A stretch of 64,000 nt of DNA. Origin: Cuniculiplasma divulgatum (lineage in GTDB: Archaea; Thermoplasmatota; Thermoplasmata; Thermoplasmatales; Thermoplasmataceae). Location: NCBI GenBank assembly GCA_031200235.1, contig CP133595.1:806001-870000 (forward strand), in the 5' to 3' direction. Every line of letters begins with the position of its first letter. Within the stretch, counting starts at the first letter, position 1. A model generated the notes under the pieces. The model saw only the letters and a list, made by a program, of their open reading frames with translations, had not been told where the DNA came from and ran no database searches. Position numbers and translations under genes: made by a program. This document shows positions 46,872 through 56,165 of this stretch, piece by piece.

Positions 46872-47841
46872 TTGATTACTCCCGACATCCTCAGCGAACT
46901 TCTTGCTGAATTCAGGGTCTTTTTGACAAGAGGCAGTTCAGGCAGTTCTCAAGATACCTCACATCCTCATAGGTATCACCAACCCGTTCAGTGGCACACC
47001 TGAACGGCATATTCATGGAACATACCAATCAGTCCAACCTGAACAGGTTCCTGAGGAATATCCCTGTACTGGAGATATTCAGGAAGTCTGTCAGCATGAT
47101 CAACCGTTATTCATCAGATTCCGTACTGGTCATTGACGACACAATTCTTGAAAGAAATGGCAGGCATATTGAGAGGGCATCATGGGTATTTGATCACACA
47201 AAGAGAAAATCAGTATGGGGAATGCAGTATGTCACTGCTGCCATATCTGGAAGGGAGGGGATATTTCCCCTGAACCTGGACCTCAAGGCAAAGAATGGGC
47301 TGTCCAAGATAGCCATGCAGATGGCTGTCATAAAGAGATCAATCACAGCAGGGATGAAAGAATGTGGGAAAAGTTCTTTGTCACCAACAGGATTGACTGG
47401 AAGCCGAAAAAGGTGATAGATCTGTATCTCAAAAGATGAGACATGGAGGTTATTCACAGGGAACTGAAGCAGGACTGCCTAAGTCATCTCTACCAGAGGA
47501 CGCATGAAAGCTTGCTTGGTACGGCAAAGCTGAGTACCCTGGGTAAGCTGCTTCTGGAAATCTCTGCCATACGTTCCATGGATGCCCATCTTAAAATCGG
47601 GAAAGGTACACCCGGCATGAGATTCAGGTCAATGGTACTTTGGATTCTGGTTGATCTGTTCAGGGCCATGGAAAAAGGGTGGAAAAGAGTTTCTGGAAGC
47701 ATTGCTCGCATCCATGGGGAATCCATACAGGTCAACAATGGGTTTACTGAGAGGTCAAATTGCAAAACTATAGAAAGGTACTGGAATTTTGCATTACATA
47801 ATGTTAATACGTTATTATTGAATAGTCATAATCAGAAATGA
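46872..47841 (+). pseudogene. Decayed DDE transposase (IS701/IS4-like)
   Basis: Fragments in several frames line up into one transposase. The N-terminal part (from ~46872) breaks at stops; 46991-47300 reads FMEHTNQSNLNRFL and VLVIDDTILERNG with the first Asp; 47300-47439 in another frame reads FFVTNRIDWKPKKVIDLYLKR, followed by TGA where TGG (Trp) is expected, and then DMEVIHRELKQDCLS with the Glu in the same frame to 47841. At least one frame change and two stops show it is dead. The family label is tentative. Confidence 0.75.
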
Positions 47842-48305: not shown

Positions 48306-49100
48306 ATGCATCTCATAATAGGATCGAAGGATGACCAGGCCAGCGTAGCAATGTCCCAGAGGCTCCTGGACACTGTTGATTTCCGGCCATTTGATGGACA
48401 GGACGGTGTGCTGAAGCACGGAGATTTCCTGTTCAGCTACATACAGAAGAGGCATCTGTACATGGATAATCTTGATGCCGGCCTGAATGGGCTCTCACAG
48501 GCAATTGATGTGGTAATATTCCTTTCACGGCATTCCTCGGCTGCCGATATTAAGAGCCTTACGGTGCATCCCACGGGAAATTTCAGCGAGGCTAAACTTG
48601 GTGGAATTGTGGGCAGGCTTTCGCCAACGGCACCGGCAGATATGACTTCTGCCCTGCTGGAGATGCACAGCACATACAGGGGTGATGAGTTTAAGGTGAC
48701 CTATGAGGCCACCCATCACGGGCCAGCCCTTGACATGCCCCACTTTTACATGGAAATAGGAACAACAGAAGCCCAGTGGAACAACCCAGAGGCTCAGGAC
48801 ACCATAATCAGAGGTATTTTCGCCCCCAGGAGGAACTTTAACGGGTCCTTTGTTGGCATCGGTGGCGGCCACTATATGCCCAAAATAACGGAATATTCCG
48901 TTGAGAATACGGTTGCCATGGGCCACATGATCTCAAAGCATGCCCTGGAGAACATAAGCCAGGACCTCATAAGACAGAGCGTTGAGAAAACGCCTGGCTG
49001 CCGCGGATTCATCATGGATCGCAAGGGCACAAAGTCCCAGGCGAGGGAAACTGTGCTATCCGTTGCGGATTCTCTTGGCCTGGAGGTAATAAGAATTTAA
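48306..49100 (+). CDS. dtdA: D-aminoacyl-tRNA deacylase (archaeal DTD2/GEK1 type)
   Basis: 264 residues. The family's pattern is clear: MHLIIGSKDDQASVAMSQRL, VVIFLSRHSSAADIKSLTVHPTGN, YEATHHGPALDMPHFYMEIG, and FVGIGGGHYMPKITE. It frees tRNA mischarged with D-amino acids, protecting translation. It follows the ferritin-like gene by 12 bases and precedes, with its own gap of 185 bases, an operon that may handle D-amino acids. Confidence 0.95.
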   Translation: MHLIIGSKDDQASVAMSQRLLDTVDFRPFDGQDGVLKHGDFLFSYIQKRHLYMDNLDAGLNGLSQAIDVVIFLSRHSSAADIKSLTVHPTGNFSEAKLGGIVGRLSPTAPADMTSALLEMHSTYRGDEFKVTYEATHHGPALDMPHFYMEIGTTEAQWNNPEAQDTIIRGIFAPRRNFNGSFVGIGGGHYMPKITEYSVENTVAMGHMISKHALENISQDLIRQSVEKTPGCRGFIMDRKGTKSQARETVLSVADSLGLEVIRI

Positions 49101-49248
49101 CTGTGCATTTTTTGACTATGCCGCACTTGCTATAAAAGTTATTGTATATAAATTATATGATTTAAGTGGACACCGGGAAATTCAGATTCCGCCACGAACA
49201 TTTTGATTAAAATGTCATGCAATATGTTTATATAGTTCAATTTTCTAA

Positions 49249-49274
49249 CAGGACTCAATCAGGCATATGTCCTG
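49249..49274. repeat. Inverted repeat at promoter of PLP-enzyme operon
   Basis: CAGGAC and GTCCTG separated by 14 bases, just downstream of a TATA-like tttatatag (49227-49235). The position at the expected transcription start fits an operator; an RNA hairpin in the short leader is the alternative. Confidence 0.4.
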
Positions 49275-49285
49275 AGTGAATAGAG

Positions 49286-50251
49286 ATGGAAGGAATAGAA
49301 GAGGACGAACCTCCTGGAAAAACACCTTTTTTTAGAGCTAGAAACCTTGAACACGCCCTCAAACTTAAGAACCTTTACATAAAGTTTGAAGGGGCGGGAA
49401 TAACAGGAACCCAGAAAGACCGTATCTCAAAGCTGCATGTCCTTAAGGCCAGGGAGAAGGGTTATGATACCATTTCACTGGCTACATGCGGAAATTACGG
49501 CGCATCAATCTCTTATTTTGCCAATCTCTACGGAATGAAGTCCGTGGTGGCTGTACCGGAATATTACTCCGGAGACAGGAATGACGAGATAAGGGGAAAT
49601 GGTGCCGAAATACTTGAGGTCCCGGCCAAGTACGAGGATCTTGTGGAATTCATGAGAGACAAATCCAGCAGCGAGGCATGGTATGATTCCAGCCCTGGAT
49701 CCGTGAATTCTGAGATAGATATGGAAGGATATGAGACCATAGCCTATGAGATAGTCTCACAGCTGGGCCGATCACCCGGTTACGTTTCAGTCCCGCTGGG
49801 GAATGGCACAACCCTGGCAGGCATATTTTCCGGCTTCGAGAAAATGCAGAGGAGAGGCGTCATCAGGAAGATTCCCAGATTCATTGGCTCCAGCACCCCG
49901 AACGGCAACCCAATTGTTGCTTCGTGGAAAAGGAAGGACCACACGCTCATGGAGCTTGATCCATCCATAATCAGGGAGACCAAGGCCTCAGAACCACTCG
50001 TGGCATACAGATCATACGATGGGCAGAAAGCACTCAATGCACTGTACAGGAGCAACGGAATGGCAACCTACGTTTCGGATGACGAGATGTACCGTTACAG
50101 CACGCTCATAGAGCATTTTGAGATGCTGTCTGTGCTACCGGCGTCTGCATCCTCCCTTGCGGCAGTGGATCATGTAATAAGCAGGAAATCCGAACCCAAA
50201 GACATAGTTGTGGTACTTACGGGGAGAAACAAGACATGGACAACGCAGTAG
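49286..50251 (+). CDS. Threonine synthase-like PLP enzyme (fold type II)
   Basis: 321 residues, shorter than true threonine synthases. Lys44 in ITGTQKDRIS is the PLP-binding lysine; ATCGNYGASISYFANLYG binds the substrate; VPLGNGTTLAGI is the phosphate cup. The substrate could be an O-phospho- or O-acetyl-amino acid, or a racemase-like reaction as in serine/aspartate racemases of this fold. First gene of a three-gene operon overlapping the DUF1611 gene by 16 bases. Confidence 0.82.
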   Translation: MEGIEEDEPPGKTPFFRARNLEHALKLKNLYIKFEGAGITGTQKDRISKLHVLKAREKGYDTISLATCGNYGASISYFANLYGMKSVVAVPEYYSGDRNDEIRGNGAEILEVPAKYEDLVEFMRDKSSSEAWYDSSPGSVNSEIDMEGYETIAYEIVSQLGRSPGYVSVPLGNGTTLAGIFSGFEKMQRRGVIRKIPRFIGSSTPNGNPIVASWKRKDHTLMELDPSIIRETKASEPLVAYRSYDGQKALNALYRSNGMATYVSDDEMYRYSTLIEHFEMLSVLPASASSLAAVDHVISRKSEPKDIVVVLTGRNKTWTTQ

Positions 50252-51267
50252 TACTTGCAGAAGGCGTTTTTGGCACAACCTATGGAAAGACCGCAAACGG
50301 CCTGGTAAGATATACAAGACGATTCAGGGTTACATCCGTCATAGATTCAACGAAGTACGGACAGGACGCAGGCGCAGTCCTGACCGGTGTGCCCAACAAC
50401 ATACCCATCATAAGCAGTGTCAGTGAGGGTATCAGGCTTGGTGCGGATACTCTTGTTGTGGGTATCGCCACTGATGGCGGATACATTCCTCCTGAATACC
50501 GGCATTTCATAACTGACGCGCTTTCCTCGGGCCTGAATGTTGTTAGCGGACTGCATGAATTCATAAGCGATGATCCTGAGTTTGCTGCAGCTGCCGCAAA
50601 GAAGGGATGCAGGATAACAGATGTGAGGAAGATGTTCAGGGACATGAAGCCGCCATATACGGGTCGTGTGAGGGAAATTGGCGCCCGCAGAATCGCTGTC
50701 CTTGGGACTGACAGTGCCATAGGAAAGAGAACAACCGCAGTTATACTGACAAACACCCTGAAGCAGAAAGGGATAGCCGCATCCATGGTGGGAACAGGCC
50801 AGACAGCCTGGATGCAGGGATTCGACCACACAGTTGTCATAGATTCCATGATAAACGACTTCATTCCTGGCGGGCTGGAGAAAGTTGCAGTTGAGGCATG
50901 GGAACAGGAACATCCGGATGTGATGTTCATCGAGGGACAGGGATCAGTCCTGCATCCGGCCTATCCAGGCAGCTTTGAGATCATTGGTGCATTGAAGCCC
51001 GACGGGATAATCCTGCAGCATGCACCCAGGAGACTTGTATTTGACGGGTTCCCAGAATATCCCATTCCGGACCTTGAGAAATACATAAGGATACTGGAGA
51101 TGCTGTCTGACAGGAAAGTTATTGCCATATCAATAAACAGGGAAAATATGAACCATAACGAGGTGGCTGAAGAGATAATGAAACTTGAGGCAAGATTCGG
51201 CATACCTGTCTTTGATCCGCTCAATTCACAACCACAGAAGCTTATTGAGGCAGTTGATTACCCGTAG
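50236..51267 (+). CDS. DUF1611 family P-loop protein (DgcN-like)
   Basis: 343 residues. The N-terminal domain (1-145) contains YGKTANGLVRYTRRF and LVVGIATDGGYIPPEYR; the C-terminal P-loop domain has VLGTDSAIGKRTTAV (155-169) and VMFIEGQGSVLHPAYPGS. The family includes DgcN, which acylates D-glutamate in a bacterial D-glutamate pathway together with an epimerase (DgcA). It overlaps the PLP gene by 16 bases and touches the PP-loop gene, so the three form one operon. The substrate here is not known. Confidence 0.85.
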   Translation: MDNAVVLAEGVFGTTYGKTANGLVRYTRRFRVTSVIDSTKYGQDAGAVLTGVPNNIPIISSVSEGIRLGADTLVVGIATDGGYIPPEYRHFITDALSSGLNVVSGLHEFISDDPEFAAAAAKKGCRITDVRKMFRDMKPPYTGRVREIGARRIAVLGTDSAIGKRTTAVILTNTLKQKGIAASMVGTGQTAWMQGFDHTVVIDSMINDFIPGGLEKVAVEAWEQEHPDVMFIEGQGSVLHPAYPGSFEIIGALKPDGIILQHAPRRLVFDGFPEYPIPDLEKYIRILEMLSDRKVIAISINRENMNHNEVAEEIMKLEARFGIPVFDPLNSQPQKLIEAVDYP

Positions 51268-52695
51268 ATGTCCTATCTCCAGAAAATATCCGAATTCCAG
51301 AACATTACCGTCACCCCGACCTCCTATGACGACCACAGAATAGAAGGCGACATCAGTCTTGAGCGGGAAACAGATACCCTGAAATTTCATCTCATATTCT
51401 CCTACTCGGATCGAATAGAGGCGGACCAGAATCTGGCAGGGCTCATTCTTGCAATGCCGGCCATCAACTTCACTCTTTTCTCAAAGAAACTCACCCTTAA
51501 TTTTCCGGCGTCAGAATCCGATGTTGCTGCCATTTCAGAGTTTGTCCGGATCAATAACCGCGAGGTCTTCATCAACAAGCTTGCAAGGAGAAGATACGAG
51601 TTCTTCAGGCAGGAGTATGTCCCACGGGATGAGGACATAACTGAGGAAAACTCCAATGGAAATACACTGGTCTCCGCTACATCCCAGTATGTGGATACCC
51701 CCAGAAAGATTCAGGGAGGCAGTAATGCCGTTCTTTCCTCAGGCGGCAAGGAAAGCCTGCTCTCCTACGGCATGCTGAAGGAAATTGATCCGGACACTCA
51801 TGCTTTCTATTTCAATGAATCAGGCGGACACTGGCTAACAGCAAAGACTGCCTATGATTATTACAGCGCAGAGTTTTCAAATGTTCACAAGGTCTGGTCA
51901 AATGTGGACAGGTTCTACCGCTACGTGCTCAGGAACATGAGGATACTGGATCAGCGCGTCATGAATATGAAGACTGACACCTACCCTGTTCAGCTGTTCA
52001 TTTTCCCCGTATACGTGATGTCAATGATCCCTGTGGCCATTGAACACGGCATAAGGGGTGCAGTACTTGGAGATGAATTCGATGATCCTTCCGATATGCA
52101 GCCTTTCCACGGAATCAGGCACTACTACGGCATATATGACCAGACACTGGATTTCAACAGGTACATGAGCGGATATCTTCATTCCAAGGGTATTGACTTC
52201 ACTGTATGGAGCGCTGTCTACCCCATAACAGGAGGAGTGGTTGAGAATATACTCATAAAGAGATATCCAGACCTGTTCAGGCTTCAGAGATCATGCCATT
52301 CCTGCAGGAGCGTGAATGGCAAGATTGTTCCCTGCGGAAAGTGCTCAAAGTGCCTGGGCATACTCATGTTCATTCTTTCCGCTGGTGGGGATCCCCACCA
52401 GATCCTGTATTCAACAGAATCAATTGAGAATTTAAAGGAAAACGTTTCCAGGGAAAGGATGAGGCTGGACACTGACGAGCTCAATTACATGAAGGCGAAA
52501 CTGGGCTTCATTGAGGCAGACGACATGGAGAGGCTACAGCACGTCTCGGGAATGCATCTCCTGCCTGATGAGCATCAGCTCTTCCAGCACGTGCCGGACT
52601 CCTACAGGGACGGGATCATGAGGATAATAAGCCAGTATGCGCCACTTTCATACTCTTATACAGGCGGGGCATGGCACCAATCAGAAAAACAGTGA
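51268..52695 (+). CDS. PP-loop ATP pyrophosphatase-like protein with Cys cluster (MurL-like?)
   Basis: 475 residues starting directly after the DUF1611 stop. The N-terminal 145 residues are beta-rich. AVLSSGGKESLLSYG (154-168) is a PP-loop, binding ATP and releasing pyrophosphate. CHSCRSVNGKIVPCGKCSKC near 345-365 looks like a metal or Fe-S site. MurL, which adenylates and epimerises the terminal glutamate of a cell-wall precursor, has a similar PP-loop in a protein of similar size; the comparison is from memory and tentative. Thermoplasmatales lack peptidoglycan, so the target would differ. It overlaps tsr3 tail to tail by 15 bases. Confidence 0.65.
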   Translation: MSYLQKISEFQNITVTPTSYDDHRIEGDISLERETDTLKFHLIFSYSDRIEADQNLAGLILAMPAINFTLFSKKLTLNFPASESDVAAISEFVRINNREVFINKLARRRYEFFRQEYVPRDEDITEENSNGNTLVSATSQYVDTPRKIQGGSNAVLSSGGKESLLSYGMLKEIDPDTHAFYFNESGGHWLTAKTAYDYYSAEFSNVHKVWSNVDRFYRYVLRNMRILDQRVMNMKTDTYPVQLFIFPVYVMSMIPVAIEHGIRGAVLGDEFDDPSDMQPFHGIRHYYGIYDQTLDFNRYMSGYLHSKGIDFTVWSAVYPITGGVVENILIKRYPDLFRLQRSCHSCRSVNGKIVPCGKCSKCLGILMFILSAGGDPHQILYSTESIENLKENVSRERMRLDTDELNYMKAKLGFIEADDMERLQHVSGMHLLPDEHQLFQHVPDSYRDGIMRIISQYAPLSYSYTGGAWHQSEKQ

Positions 52696-53226
52696 TTCTG
52701 CCTTCGTCACGTCTTCCTGGCTGCTGCATGAGGAATATTCCTCAAGGGGCTCCCTGTTCACCTTGAGGAACTGCATTCCCCAGTTGAATTTGGACAGCAC
52801 CAGTGTGGAGGAACTTCTGAAACCGCAGATGTAAAGTGCAGCTGCAATGGCCTCCACGGACGATAGTTTTCCGGGTTTCCCGAAATTCACAGGATTGGCC
52901 GGAACCAGCAGTGGAAGTTTCCTTGGGAACCTCAGACGCAGATTCCTTATGCCCTCTATTTTAGCCCATGATCCGTCTATCACTGAAATCCCCCTCTCCA
53001 GGATTATGGCGCTATCAGCAGGAGTCACGAAGACATCAGCAAAAGGTGTCAGGGAAAGCGTCTGTGATATCTTTTTCATGCCTGTTTTTTCTGCAAGTCC
53101 AAACCGCTTCAGTTTCAGCATTGTTGACTTTGTGGGATCATCCTCGCCCAGGTATGCGAAAAGGATTCTTGGTTTCTGAATGGCATCGTCCGCATCCAGC
53201 ATCCATCCCGTATGGATGGCCCGCAC
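52681..53226 (-). CDS. tsr3: Tsr3-like 18S/16S rRNA aminocarboxypropyltransferase (DUF367)
   Basis: 181 residues from GTG 53226, ~30 bases from a TATA element. Family pattern: DPTKSTMLKLKRFGLAEK, VIDGSWAKIE, FPRKLPLLVPANPVNFGKPGKLSSVEA and IAAALYICGF, then LSKFNWGMQFL. It transfers the aminocarboxypropyl group of S-adenosylmethionine to a modified uridine of small-subunit rRNA. Divergent from the 298-residue membrane protein, sharing one promoter region. Confidence 0.93.
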   Translation of the reverse strand: MRAIHTGWMLDADDAIQKPRILFAYLGEDDPTKSTMLKLKRFGLAEKTGMKKISQTLSLTPFADVFVTPADSAIILERGISVIDGSWAKIEGIRNLRLRFPRKLPLLVPANPVNFGKPGKLSSVEAIAAALYICGFRSSSTLVLSKFNWGMQFLKVNREPLEEYSSCSSQEDVTKAESLFF

Positions 53227-53281: not shown

Positions 53282-54178
53282 ATGCTGAATCTCCCCTGGG
53301 TCATCATCACCGAGGTAGTTATGACCGCATTCATCATCTGGATCATAGCCTACCTGAGGAAACATTCCCGGGGTCTCACACTCCGAAGTTTCTCTGTATC
53401 CGTTATCCTTCTATCCATGATGGGCAGCATGTTCGATTCCCTGATTTATTACATGGCAATGCCCAAAACTTTCTTCAACGTGGTTCTTGCCGCAAACATT
53501 TCCATGATCGCCATGGCCATTGCCATTGTCTATATCCTCTGGACTGCAGTGAAGGAAAAAGATTATTCCATGAAGAGAAGCATGGCACTTGCTTTTGCGC
53601 TTATTCTGGGATGGAATGAGGTATCCATGGCACTGTTTCTCCGAATCCTTGGCTACTATTTTCATGACGTTGCATCGCTGGCTGCATACCTTTCCTATTT
53701 CGGGCTTTCAATTACCAATTTCCTCTTTCTTGCACCCATGATTGCGGAAATGGTCTTCTTCATAGCATTCAGGCTTTCCCCTGGCCTGGGAAGGAGAATT
53801 TCCACAGCCCTTCTGCTCATGCAGGTGGCTGATCCTGCCGTCCTTGGCGATTCCGCAGCAGTGATTCCGCTTCTCATTGCATATTCCATAATCATGATAT
53901 TTGCTGTTTATTACGCATTCAGCTACGTCTATGGCAACCGCAGATCCATTGACAGGATGTCCCGGAGGCTTGTTGGCTGGTTCATATTCATATTCGCACT
54001 ATCAACAGCTGGCCTCCTGGAGCCCATTGTGGTTCACGGGCCTTTCGGGCTGTCATGGTTCGTATTTGCAGTTTCCATGATGTCCTCCATGGTTCTCTAT
54101 TTCGAGATAATACTGGGAATGTTTACCCCTGTACCGGACAGGGTTCCATTAGCTGCCGAAAATCCAGTCGCCTCCTGA
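53282..54178 (+). CDS. Multi-pass membrane protein related to the membrane part of the next gene
   Basis: 298 residues and about eight membrane helices, no cofactor motif. It aligns by eye with the first ~290 residues of the convergent 659-residue protein: an R-x-(A/L)-(A/V)-F helix followed by (N/D)EV-x-M at ~107-113, a helix ending P-x5-E-M near 155-162, and the R-R-S helix and S-M-(M/I)-x2-MVLY ending near the C-terminus. Leaderless start: the shared TATA lies 26 bases upstream. Function unknown; probably a membrane partner in electron transfer. Confidence 0.7.
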   Translation: MLNLPWVIITEVVMTAFIIWIIAYLRKHSRGLTLRSFSVSVILLSMMGSMFDSLIYYMAMPKTFFNVVLAANISMIAMAIAIVYILWTAVKEKDYSMKRSMALAFALILGWNEVSMALFLRILGYYFHDVASLAAYLSYFGLSITNFLFLAPMIAEMVFFIAFRLSPGLGRRISTALLLMQVADPAVLGDSAAVIPLLIAYSIIMIFAVYYAFSYVYGNRRSIDRMSRRLVGWFIFIFALSTAGLLEPIVVHGPFGLSWFVFAVSMMSSMVLYFEIILGMFTPVPDRVPLAAENPVAS

Positions 54179-54185
54179 TGACACA

Positions 54186-56165
54186 TCACTTTTTGGAAAT
54201 TTTCTCCTTTACCCAGTGCCTGACATCATAATAGAAGATGTTCTCATATGGGCAGGCATTAACACAATCTCCTATGCCCACACACCTGCTGTCCTTGTAT
54301 TCCCCTGTGGTGATGAAACTGCCGGGCTGCCCGTAATTCCCCACAGGGCATGCACTTGCACAGTCCTTGGTGGGGCATGTCGCGCACTGGTTCGGATCCC
54401 TGACCTTCAGGCGGAAGAAGCCGAATCTTGAGATGAACCTGTTGAAGTTGCCCCACTGGCAGTATCCGGTGTTGATGCATCCGTATGATCCCACGTAAGG
54501 CATGAGTATGAATACGGCGTACCAGAGGAAGCCGAAATAGAAAATGTAGAGCATATATTCTGGATCTGTGCCGTAAAATGTCAGATTCAGCCTGCCTGTT
54601 GAATCGAGCCACGATATGACTGCCGCAGCTATCACTGAGACATATACCATGTTGGAGACGATCCTGTAAACCATATTTCCTGTGCGATCCGCCCTTGTGA
54701 GTGATCTGCTCATGCCGGACGAGGTGTTGAATTTCTTCATGGAATCGTAGAATGTCCCCTGATACATCACCGGTGCAGTGCAGAAAACTGAACACAGCTG
54801 CCTGGAACCGAACAGGAGCGAAAGGATGCCGCTTATGACATATGTCAGCACCATGGGAAGGATCAGCAGGGGAGAAACAGGGCCGGCAGTTCCTATGCCC
54901 ATGGACCATCCGATGAATGGTACACTTGCGGGATTCTGTATTATGAAGGATGGGAGGAGTATTGAATAAATGCCGTACGCCACAAGCATGAGTGAAAGCC
55001 TGATGCGAGTCTCCATGTCCCTTGTTTTCCTGATCTTGAAAACAACAAGAGATCCCATTTCAATGCCCATCATTACAAGGAACCATGAGGATAGGCTCAC
55101 GCTGCCGAAGAATATGAAGAAATCAAAAACAGCCTTCCCTGCAACTGCCAGAATGCTCCCTGTAAGCGGCACAATTCCTGTGGAGGCAATGAACGGAACA
55201 GCCCCGTAATACTGGACGTCAAAGGCTGCACCCATGAAGAATTCAGCCGCGAAAACAAGAAGGAGAAAACCGAAGGACCATGGTCTGTTTGCGAGCCAGT
55301 AGGTGCGGGGACCTGTTGAAAGCATGCCCCTGTGGATGGTGCCCCACAGGTACAGGACCATGTCTGCTATCATGGCCAGGGAGAAGATGTAGATGCTTCC
55401 ATAAACCTGCCACAGGAAAACTCCCGCCATCATGGCAGTGTAAACCGCAAGGAGGATGAGGATGTATGATCCCATTGATCTCCTGACCGATTGTGCCCTG
55501 TAGAGGTGTTCAAAGAGGAATACAAAGAACCCGGTCATGACAGCCCCTGACAGATAGACCGTCAACTGGCCCCAGCCATATCCAGCAACCGCGGGGGGCG
55601 CCAGAAACATTATTGCTGCCTGCGTCAGCAACAGAACAAGAGCCCATGAGTTCTGGTCCCTTCTCATGAGAATTATGCTCAGGAACATCTCAATGCTCAT
55701 GGGAAAAACAAACCAGTAGCTGGAGACCGACTGGAATATTGCACCTACGGGGCTGGTAGTCATCAGTGACAGGTATTGCTGATGCGACAGAACAAGGTTG
55801 AATACCAGGCTCATGAGGACCTCGTCCAGGATCACAAAGGACGCAGTGAAAACCATGAGGAATCTTCTTGAAGCATTCTGATCCTCCAGGAATATATCGC
55901 GCATGAACAGCGCCAGGAACGGGATGATTTCCACTGCCATGGCAACAAGGGCAACCTCTATGGCACCGATTTCGGAGAGAATGCCGGGAAATGCAAGATA
56001 GATAAAGGGGCCAACAAGCATTCCGTTCATCATTGCAAGGATGAGGTAAACCACCAGCTTCCGCAGCGGATTGTCTGCCCTGCTGGCTGCATATATTGCA
56101 AAGGCCATTGCAGCAGCCATAGCAGCCATGGCCGCCCACAGCAGGTAAATCAGGAACACTTGCAT
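54186..56165 (-). CDS. Polytopic membrane protein with C-terminal [4Fe-4S] ferredoxin domain
   Basis: 659 residues. About sixteen membrane helices occupy residues 1-560 in two blocks; the first resembles the neighbouring 298-residue protein. A CSVFCTAP segment lies on a loop and YGCINTGYCQWGN after the last helix. The C-terminal ~70 residues are a two-cluster ferredoxin: CATCPTKDCASACP and CVGIGDCVNACP. The layout is that of membrane quinone-linked iron-sulfur proteins (NapH/NosR/CcoG-like). The redox partner is unknown; the gene is alone on its strand. Confidence 0.8.
   Translation of the reverse strand: MQVFLIYLLWAAMAAMAAAMAFAIYAASRADNPLRKLVVYLILAMMNGMLVGPFIYLAFPGILSEIGAIEVALVAMAVEIIPFLALFMRDIFLEDQNASRRFLMVFTASFVILDEVLMSLVFNLVLSHQQYLSLMTTSPVGAIFQSVSSYWFVFPMSIEMFLSIILMRRDQNSWALVLLLTQAAIMFLAPPAVAGYGWGQLTVYLSGAVMTGFFVFLFEHLYRAQSVRRSMGSYILILLAVYTAMMAGVFLWQVYGSIYIFSLAMIADMVLYLWGTIHRGMLSTGPRTYWLANRPWSFGFLLLVFAAEFFMGAAFDVQYYGAVPFIASTGIVPLTGSILAVAGKAVFDFFIFFGSVSLSSWFLVMMGIEMGSLVVFKIRKTRDMETRIRLSLMLVAYGIYSILLPSFIIQNPASVPFIGWSMGIGTAGPVSPLLILPMVLTYVISGILSLLFGSRQLCSVFCTAPVMYQGTFYDSMKKFNTSSGMSRSLTRADRTGNMVYRIVSNMVYVSVIAAAVISWLDSTGRLNLTFYGTDPEYMLYIFYFGFLWYAVFILMPYVGSYGCINTGYCQWGNFNRFISRFGFFRLKVRDPNQCATCPTKDCASACPVGNYGQPGSFITTGEYKDSRCVGIGDCVNACPYENIFYYDVRHWVKEKISKK

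Follow-up and report, generated by a model that had tools for sequence, protein, structure and literature searches.

What does a three-gene operon that combines a pyridoxal phosphate (PLP) enzyme, a DUF1611 protein and a PP-loop protein do in an archaeon without peptidoglycan? The question is raised by a stretch of 64,000 nucleotides of Cuniculiplasma divulgatum (contig CP133595.1, positions 806,001 to 870,000), which we call the window and in whose numbering all window coordinates are given; its host genome measures 2.0 Mb and its relatives are Thermoplasmata. The trio lies on the + strand and consists of a fold-type-II PLP enzyme of the PRK06381 'threonine synthase' family (49286-50251, 321 residues), a DUF1611 protein homologous to DgcN, with an intact P-loop GTDSAIGKRTT (50236-51267, 343 residues), and a PP-loop ATP-using protein homologous to MurL (51268-52695, 475 residues). 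The first two genes overlap by exactly 16 bases (50236-50251) and the second and third are separated by a gap of exactly zero (51267/51268); the frames of all three, and of the neighbouring dtdA, are open, and the coordinates, overlap and gap given in an initial annotation of this DNA were all confirmed on the sequence. We argue that the operon probably converts an N-blocked amino acid to its mirror form, because its last gene is related to MurL and because DUF1611 genes elsewhere usually adjoin a racemase.

The PP-loop protein as a relative of MurL

Taken alone, the window's PP-loop protein had no match in Pfam, NCBIfam or PDB. It carries the motif SGGKES at residues 158-163 and a cysteine cluster, RSCHSC...PCGKCSKC, at residues 343-362, and in an alignment of its family (28 sequences) the elements SGGK(E/D), ESG.HW, G.E.DDP, DQ, QRSCH and PCG.C.KC are invariant or nearly so. 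The consensus sequences of this family found MurL as their best match (E 4.4e-4), and MurL (NF041275) was also the commonest NCBIfam family when the members were scanned one by one (7/28 members, best E 3.8e-4), with matches mostly at model positions ~260-360, the region of the cysteine cluster.

For a comparison at the level of profiles, we used a pair of Myxococcota homologues of MurL that score 121 and 109 bits to NF041275 (L166, 1447-2814, and L167, 1258-2910; on visual inspection, no Mur ligase stands out beside either). In hhalign, the PP-loop family matched this pair at 96.7% in local mode (314 columns) and 97.0% in global mode (419 columns), amounting to full-length homology with a collinear PP-loop and cysteine cluster, whereas controls drawn from the window's genome and related ones, treated by the same procedure, reached 3.0% (TtuA-like), 0.7% (NadE) and 51.9% (QueC). 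A hidden Markov model (HMM) of the pair, run over 4,553 frames (2.8 Mb), found only the PP-loop family after itself among the top 30 listed, and the window protein scored E 1.8e-5 in this search. A joint alignment holds 23 positions at which the two MurL homologues agree with each other and with 90% or more of the PP-loop family, including GGK.SL, the Glu of GDE/HE and HSC..PC..C.KC. The resemblance to MurL that the initial annotation had suspected is thus borne out by profile comparison, and the grouping with TtuA-like tRNA thiolases (PF01171) or NAD synthetase (PF02540) on which that annotation would have given way was not found. Judged by sequence, the PP-loop protein is a distant homologue of MurL that lies outside the MurL equivalog. 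A relation to DUF6395 (PF19932) was considered and set aside, as the matches fell below the cut-off and lay mostly elsewhere in the genomes, and a tblastn search of plasmids with a member of the PP-loop family gave nothing better than E 4.

Conservation of the trio and the company of DUF1611

The linkage of the DUF1611 and PP-loop genes exceeds chance. In a class-level sample of 300 Thermoplasmata genomes, the PP-loop gene is present in 61, and 60 of these also contain DUF1611; in the sole exception (G294) the PP-loop gene stands at a contig end. The two genes are neighbours in 32/32 regions fetched and in 78 of the 80 loci from named contigs, the remaining two being a locus where the contig ends (L117) and a Myxococcales metagenome-assembled genome without DUF1611 (L159). 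The named contigs include Thermoplasma, Ferroplasma acidarmanus, Acidiplasma aeolicum, Thermogymnomonas and 'E-plasma', among others, and, of the 80 loci, three bear the label Bathyarchaeota and a fourth that of Methanomassiliicoccales. The two genes are set apart by 600 bases (L042) or ~4 kb (L120) in E-plasma-like genomes, with their order kept. The PLP gene stands upstream of DUF1611 at most loci and, at loci with sufficient flanking sequence, is missing in lineage f3 and most of lineage f4 (e.g., L139, L142, L145, L151, L153). The linkage expected for the trio is supported; the conserved neighbours of the PP-loop gene are the PLP enzyme, DUF1611, TSR3 and dtdA.

Two loci deserve separate mention. 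The lone family member of the Myxococcales genome (L159, 10001-11425) has no DUF1611 match in 21 kb, that is, within ~10 kb of the PP-loop gene; it could stem from lateral transfer or a mis-binned contig and is of no help on function. In Thermogymnomonas acidicola (L148, 8004-11415), each gene of the trio is broken into two or three overlapping pieces, indicating either gene decay or draft sequencing errors.

The DUF1611 protein passes the gathering scores of both PF07755 (E 1.2e-63, 214.6 bits) and PF17396 (E 8e-29, 100.3 bits), and its solved relatives are 2g0t, 7xrj and 2obn. Its earlier description as DgcN-like is supported, although it is a homologue outside the DgcN equivalog: it scores 185.6 bits against the DgcN cut-off of 480 (NF041892) and belongs to a separate clade. 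Among 15 annotated plasmid neighbourhoods of DUF1611, hand-chosen across the match list and hence non-random, a racemase or epimerase is found next door in 10: DgcA (L213, L241, L244), a dipeptide epimerase (L212, L236, L237, L239) or a member of the alanine/ornithine racemase family (L210, L211, L243). In Thermoplasmata without the MurL-like gene, an enolase-superfamily epimerase occurs in 8 of 20 DUF1611 regions and an alanine/ornithine-racemase-type gene in one, while the rest have no partner or, in L226, the PLP gene only. A further candidate neighbour, in L230 and L231, proved to be a phosphopantothenate synthetase.

In a tree of 53 DUF1611 proteins, all 18 MurL-linked ones form one clade (support 100/99), which is sister to a Thermoplasmata clade with an enolase-superfamily partner or none and stands next to the alanine/ornithine-racemase clade. 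In the simplest history, DUF1611 and the MurL-like gene became partners once and have been inherited together since. In the window, no DgcA adjoins DUF1611 and family searches of the neighbouring genes returned no enolase-type protein; the slot downstream of DUF1611 is taken by the MurL-like gene. The rule that DUF1611 is accompanied by an epimerase of whatever fold is our strongest functional clue to the PP-loop protein.

The PLP enzyme adds a further element. It matches PF00291 (E 3.4e-53) and, over its full length, the 'threonine synthase' family NF004996 (417.9 bits, above the cut-off of 266), and its PLP lysine is K44 (GTQKDR). The STGN/SSGN motif is replaced by [TS]CGNYG, with an invariant cysteine (residue 68 in the window), in 84/84 aligned members from trios and from the family f10 described below, and the other fold-II enzymes of the genome that we checked have Thr or Ser at this position, which we take to be that of the second catalytic base of fold-type-II serine racemases. 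The substitution raises doubt about the predicted threonine-forming activity. Of the five further PALP proteins in the genome, two score as threonine synthases above their respective cut-offs (TIGR00260, 245 vs 167 bits; PRK06450, 456 vs 301 bits). Several genomes of family f10 (L245-L261) contain two DUF1611 paralogues: the first directly follows a trio-type PLP gene, and the second has an enolase-superfamily epimerase close by on the opposite strand. As the PLP-DUF1611 pairs of f10 occur without a PP-loop gene, the linkage of the PLP enzyme to DUF1611 is independent of the MurL-like gene. In one f10 genome (L226, 6190-6594), a GNAT acetyltransferase gene directly follows the pair, and this could be an acyl-transfer partner or chance.

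A possible route of amino-acid inversion and its rivals

MurL requires ATP and Mg2+, forms AMP and works one way (PMC5808125, PMC8788868), in the direction L to D, and was described as the first epimerase with ATP as a co-substrate (PMC8788868); that it adenylates the alpha-carboxylate before epimerisation and hydrolysis is its authors' hypothesis (PMC5808125, PMC8788868). Its substrate terminates in a glutamate that is acylated on nitrogen and retains a free carboxylate. DgcN-DgcA, on the other hand, leads from D-glutamate to L-glutamate (PMC10845958). NCBI's family name gives the DgcN step as N-acetylation of D-glutamate. The same step is reportedly what Yu et al. (2023) described.

Against this background, we propose that the trio is an archaeal counterpart of DgcN-DgcA in which the racemase slot is filled by a MurL-like, ATP-consuming epimerase, making it an N-acyl amino-acid inversion module, and we regard this proposal as about evenly poised between right and wrong. 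It is carried by the observed gene content, the linkage over many genomes, the homology between the PP-loop protein and MurL and the racemase or epimerase company of DUF1611; each catalytic step is inferred from these, as are substrate, direction and the part played by the PLP enzyme. The DUF1611 protein, acting like DgcN, would block the amino group of an amino acid, the leading case being that glutamate, or an acidic amino acid like it, is acetylated. The PP-loop protein would then spend ATP on adenylating the free alpha-carboxylate of the blocked amino acid, as proposed for MurL; the activated alpha-carbon would drop a proton and regain one on the other face, and hydrolysis would free the inverted N-acyl amino acid together with AMP. 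Given the use of ATP, the inversion is proposed to be one-way. The PLP enzyme would supply the incoming amino acid, or would itself racemise or otherwise remodel it. By analogy, an N-acetyl-amino acid would be the smallest molecule shaped like the substrate end of MurL.

The identity of the substrate is more tentative. Glutamate is possible, though we lean towards doubting it, and aspartate is as good a guess because D-amino acids and a PLP-dependent aspartate racemase have been reported in Thermoplasma acidophilum, according to the title of Long et al. 2001 (via PMC6047364). The initial annotation had named D-glutamate as the specific substrate and had imagined the building of a D-glutamate-type conjugate, and both ideas are unsupported as stated. 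Rather unlikely, in our view, is the combined picture of a new D-amino-acid route in Thermoplasmata, in which a fold-II PLP enzyme with Cys instead of the usual Thr/Ser, DUF1611 as N-acylase and a MurL-type epimerase driven by ATP would together carry out the one-way inversion of an acidic amino acid in cells that lack peptidoglycan.

This leads to the observations that weigh against an inversion module. The window protein has no match to NF041275, and the best member of its family scores 19.1 bits against a cut-off of 700; the two Myxococcota homologues, of putative function, are themselves below this cut-off. When the search was reversed, the HMM of the PP-loop family ranked a TtuA-like protein (6e-5) just above the MurL homologues (3e-4, 3e-3), a match that we take as a shared PP-loop motif because the TtuA-like profile aligns over 42 columns only. 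Family searches of the stretches examined revealed no Mur ligase, and so no MurD2-type partner, beside the PP-loop gene. The nearest solved structures are those of QatC and QueC, neither of which is an epimerase, and the hhalign value for QueC is intermediate. About half of the DUF1611 regions without a MurL-like gene have no recognised racemase nearby, and some of the enolase neighbours lie on the opposite strand. Finally, no deacylase was seen in the trio.

The structural results bear most directly on a different reading of the PP-loop protein, namely that, like QueC, Cap9 and QatC, it activates a carboxylate by adenylation and couples it with ammonia or an amine; the product would then be an amide, a nitrile or a peptide-like conjugate, and DUF1611 would prepare the carboxylate partner. 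The structure of the window protein is predicted with confidence (predicted local distance difference test, pLDDT, 93; predicted template modelling score, pTM, 0.91), and Foldseek placed QatC (9y02_B) first (E 2.2e-5, 472 columns), followed by QueC; a model of a MurL homologue, built from two sequences, reached a pLDDT of 44 and was too poor for a fold-to-fold comparison. The cysteine cluster is also reminiscent of the zinc site C(x)8CxxCxxC of QueC (PMC13329287), and the hhalign value for QueC reaches 52%. However, the template modelling score to QatC is low (0.39-0.42), the window protein gave no match to PF06508 (gathering cut-off 22 bits) at E up to 10, the fit to the MurL profile is better and covers more of the protein, and the gene company of DUF1611 consists of racemases rather than amidases. 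We therefore consider amidation or ligation rather unlikely, and the PP-loop protein looks like a MurL-type member of a wider QueC-like PP-loop world.

Two other explanations start from the PLP enzyme. It might be the actual racemase, one that could explain the aspartate racemase activity of T. acidophilum, with the DUF1611 and PP-loop proteins acting on its D-amino acid. The invariant Cys68, at what is presumably the second-base position of serine racemases, would suit such a role, as would the f10 pairs that lack a PP-loop gene, the presence of two other threonine synthases in the genome and the D-amino acids and PLP-dependent racemase named in the title of Long et al. 2001 (cited in PMC6047364). 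Yet the enzyme scores above the cut-off of a family called threonine synthase (a name that is no test of activity) and matches no racemase family better, and f3 and most of f4 keep the DUF1611 and PP-loop genes without it, all of which makes this account distinctly unlikely. That the trio makes threonine or an analogue, with the DUF1611 and PP-loop proteins modifying a precursor and D-amino acids playing no part, would fit the score of 418 bits against a cut-off of 266, but it has to contend with the two other threonine synthases, the change from Thr/Ser to Cys and those same lineages without a PLP gene, and we hold it to be improbable.

Neighbouring genes and comparison with known systems

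Upstream of the trio lies dtdA, encoding a D-aminoacyl-tRNA deacylase (48306-49100, + strand; PF04414, E 2.9e-65, 220 bits against a gathering cut-off of 33.6). It is separated from the trio by 185 intergenic bases that contain a TATA-box-like TTTATATA (49227-49234, + strand), a consensus match only and a possible promoter of the trio. It adjoins the trio only within the window's own family; it is not beside the trio or pair in f3, f4, f15 or Bathyarchaeota, and in Thermoplasma (L100, L101) it lies on the far side of TSR3. Given its own intergenic region and its lack of conservation beyond the family, dtdA is a family-level conserved neighbour, context rather than a member of the operon; we rejected it as part of the module, and with it falls the functional link to the trio that had been suggested at the outset. 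On the other side, a TSR3-type 16S rRNA aminocarboxypropyltransferase gene of the DUF367 family (52681-53226, - strand), recognised by family search, is a convergent neighbour outside the module. Farther away, two adjoining open frames at 46991-47841, the first with a weak DDE_5 transposase match, look like a split insertion-sequence remnant, and a hydrophobic protein of 298 residues (53282-54178) adjoins one of 659 residues (54186-56165) that has extended hydrophobic segments and, by weak matches, a 4Fe-4S dicluster-like region at its C-terminus.

What we consider new is the combination of a DgcN-type module with a MurL-type epimerase: a literature search, which left many journals uncovered, found nothing linking DUF1611 to a PP-loop or MurL-like protein, and we know of no MurL-type epimerase outside wall synthesis. 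If the combined D-amino-acid route set out above is real, its epimerase would, to our knowledge, be the first of this kind, and the route might supply the D-amino acids reported in Thermoplasma. That an archaeal MurL-like branch goes with DUF1611 suggests a broader metabolic use of epimerisation at the cost of ATP, and the proteins, coming from thermophilic hosts, are offered for structural work. The locus further provides a testable set of genes for the question of why archaea without peptidoglycan hold D-amino acids, as well as a predictive rule, namely that DUF1611 tends to accompany whichever racemase or epimerase a lineage uses. Its interest lies in making the MurL mechanism and the archaeal D-amino-acid question testable, rather than in a demonstrated product.

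Set beside known systems, the trio shares features with several and coincides with none. Its PLP enzyme matches PRK06381 (NF004996) at full length and over the cut-off, and differs in its invariant [TS]CGNYG in place of STGN/SSGN and in adjoining DUF1611 in the loci examined. With QueC, QatC and Cap9, the closest solved structures, the PP-loop protein shares its fold and a Cys-rich site, while it has no Pfam QueC match and its profile score to them is below that to MurL. The pairs of DUF1611 and an alanine/ornithine racemase on Ruegeria and Vibrio plasmids come near in another way, as their DUF1611 proteins are 42-43% identical to the window's and the racemase gene lies directly downstream and overlaps, but that racemase is unrelated to the PP-loop protein and no third gene of the trio is present. 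DgcN-DgcA, composed of DUF1611 and an N-acetyl-D-glutamate racemase, likewise places a DUF1611 protein with the P-loop GTDxx[VI]GK beside an epimerase, putative in our case; the trio departs from it in an epimerase of MurL type rather than of the enolase superfamily, in a DUF1611 from another clade than annotated DgcN and in the added PLP enzyme. MurL itself has the same PP-loop GGK(D/E)SL and C-terminal cysteine cluster, a similar length (447 model positions against 475 residues), collinearity over 314-419 columns in hhalign and, presumably, the same ATP-dependent adenylation of a carboxylate; unlike MurL, the archaeal protein, at ~20% identity, has DUF1611 rather than MurD2 as its partner and belongs to hosts without peptidoglycan.

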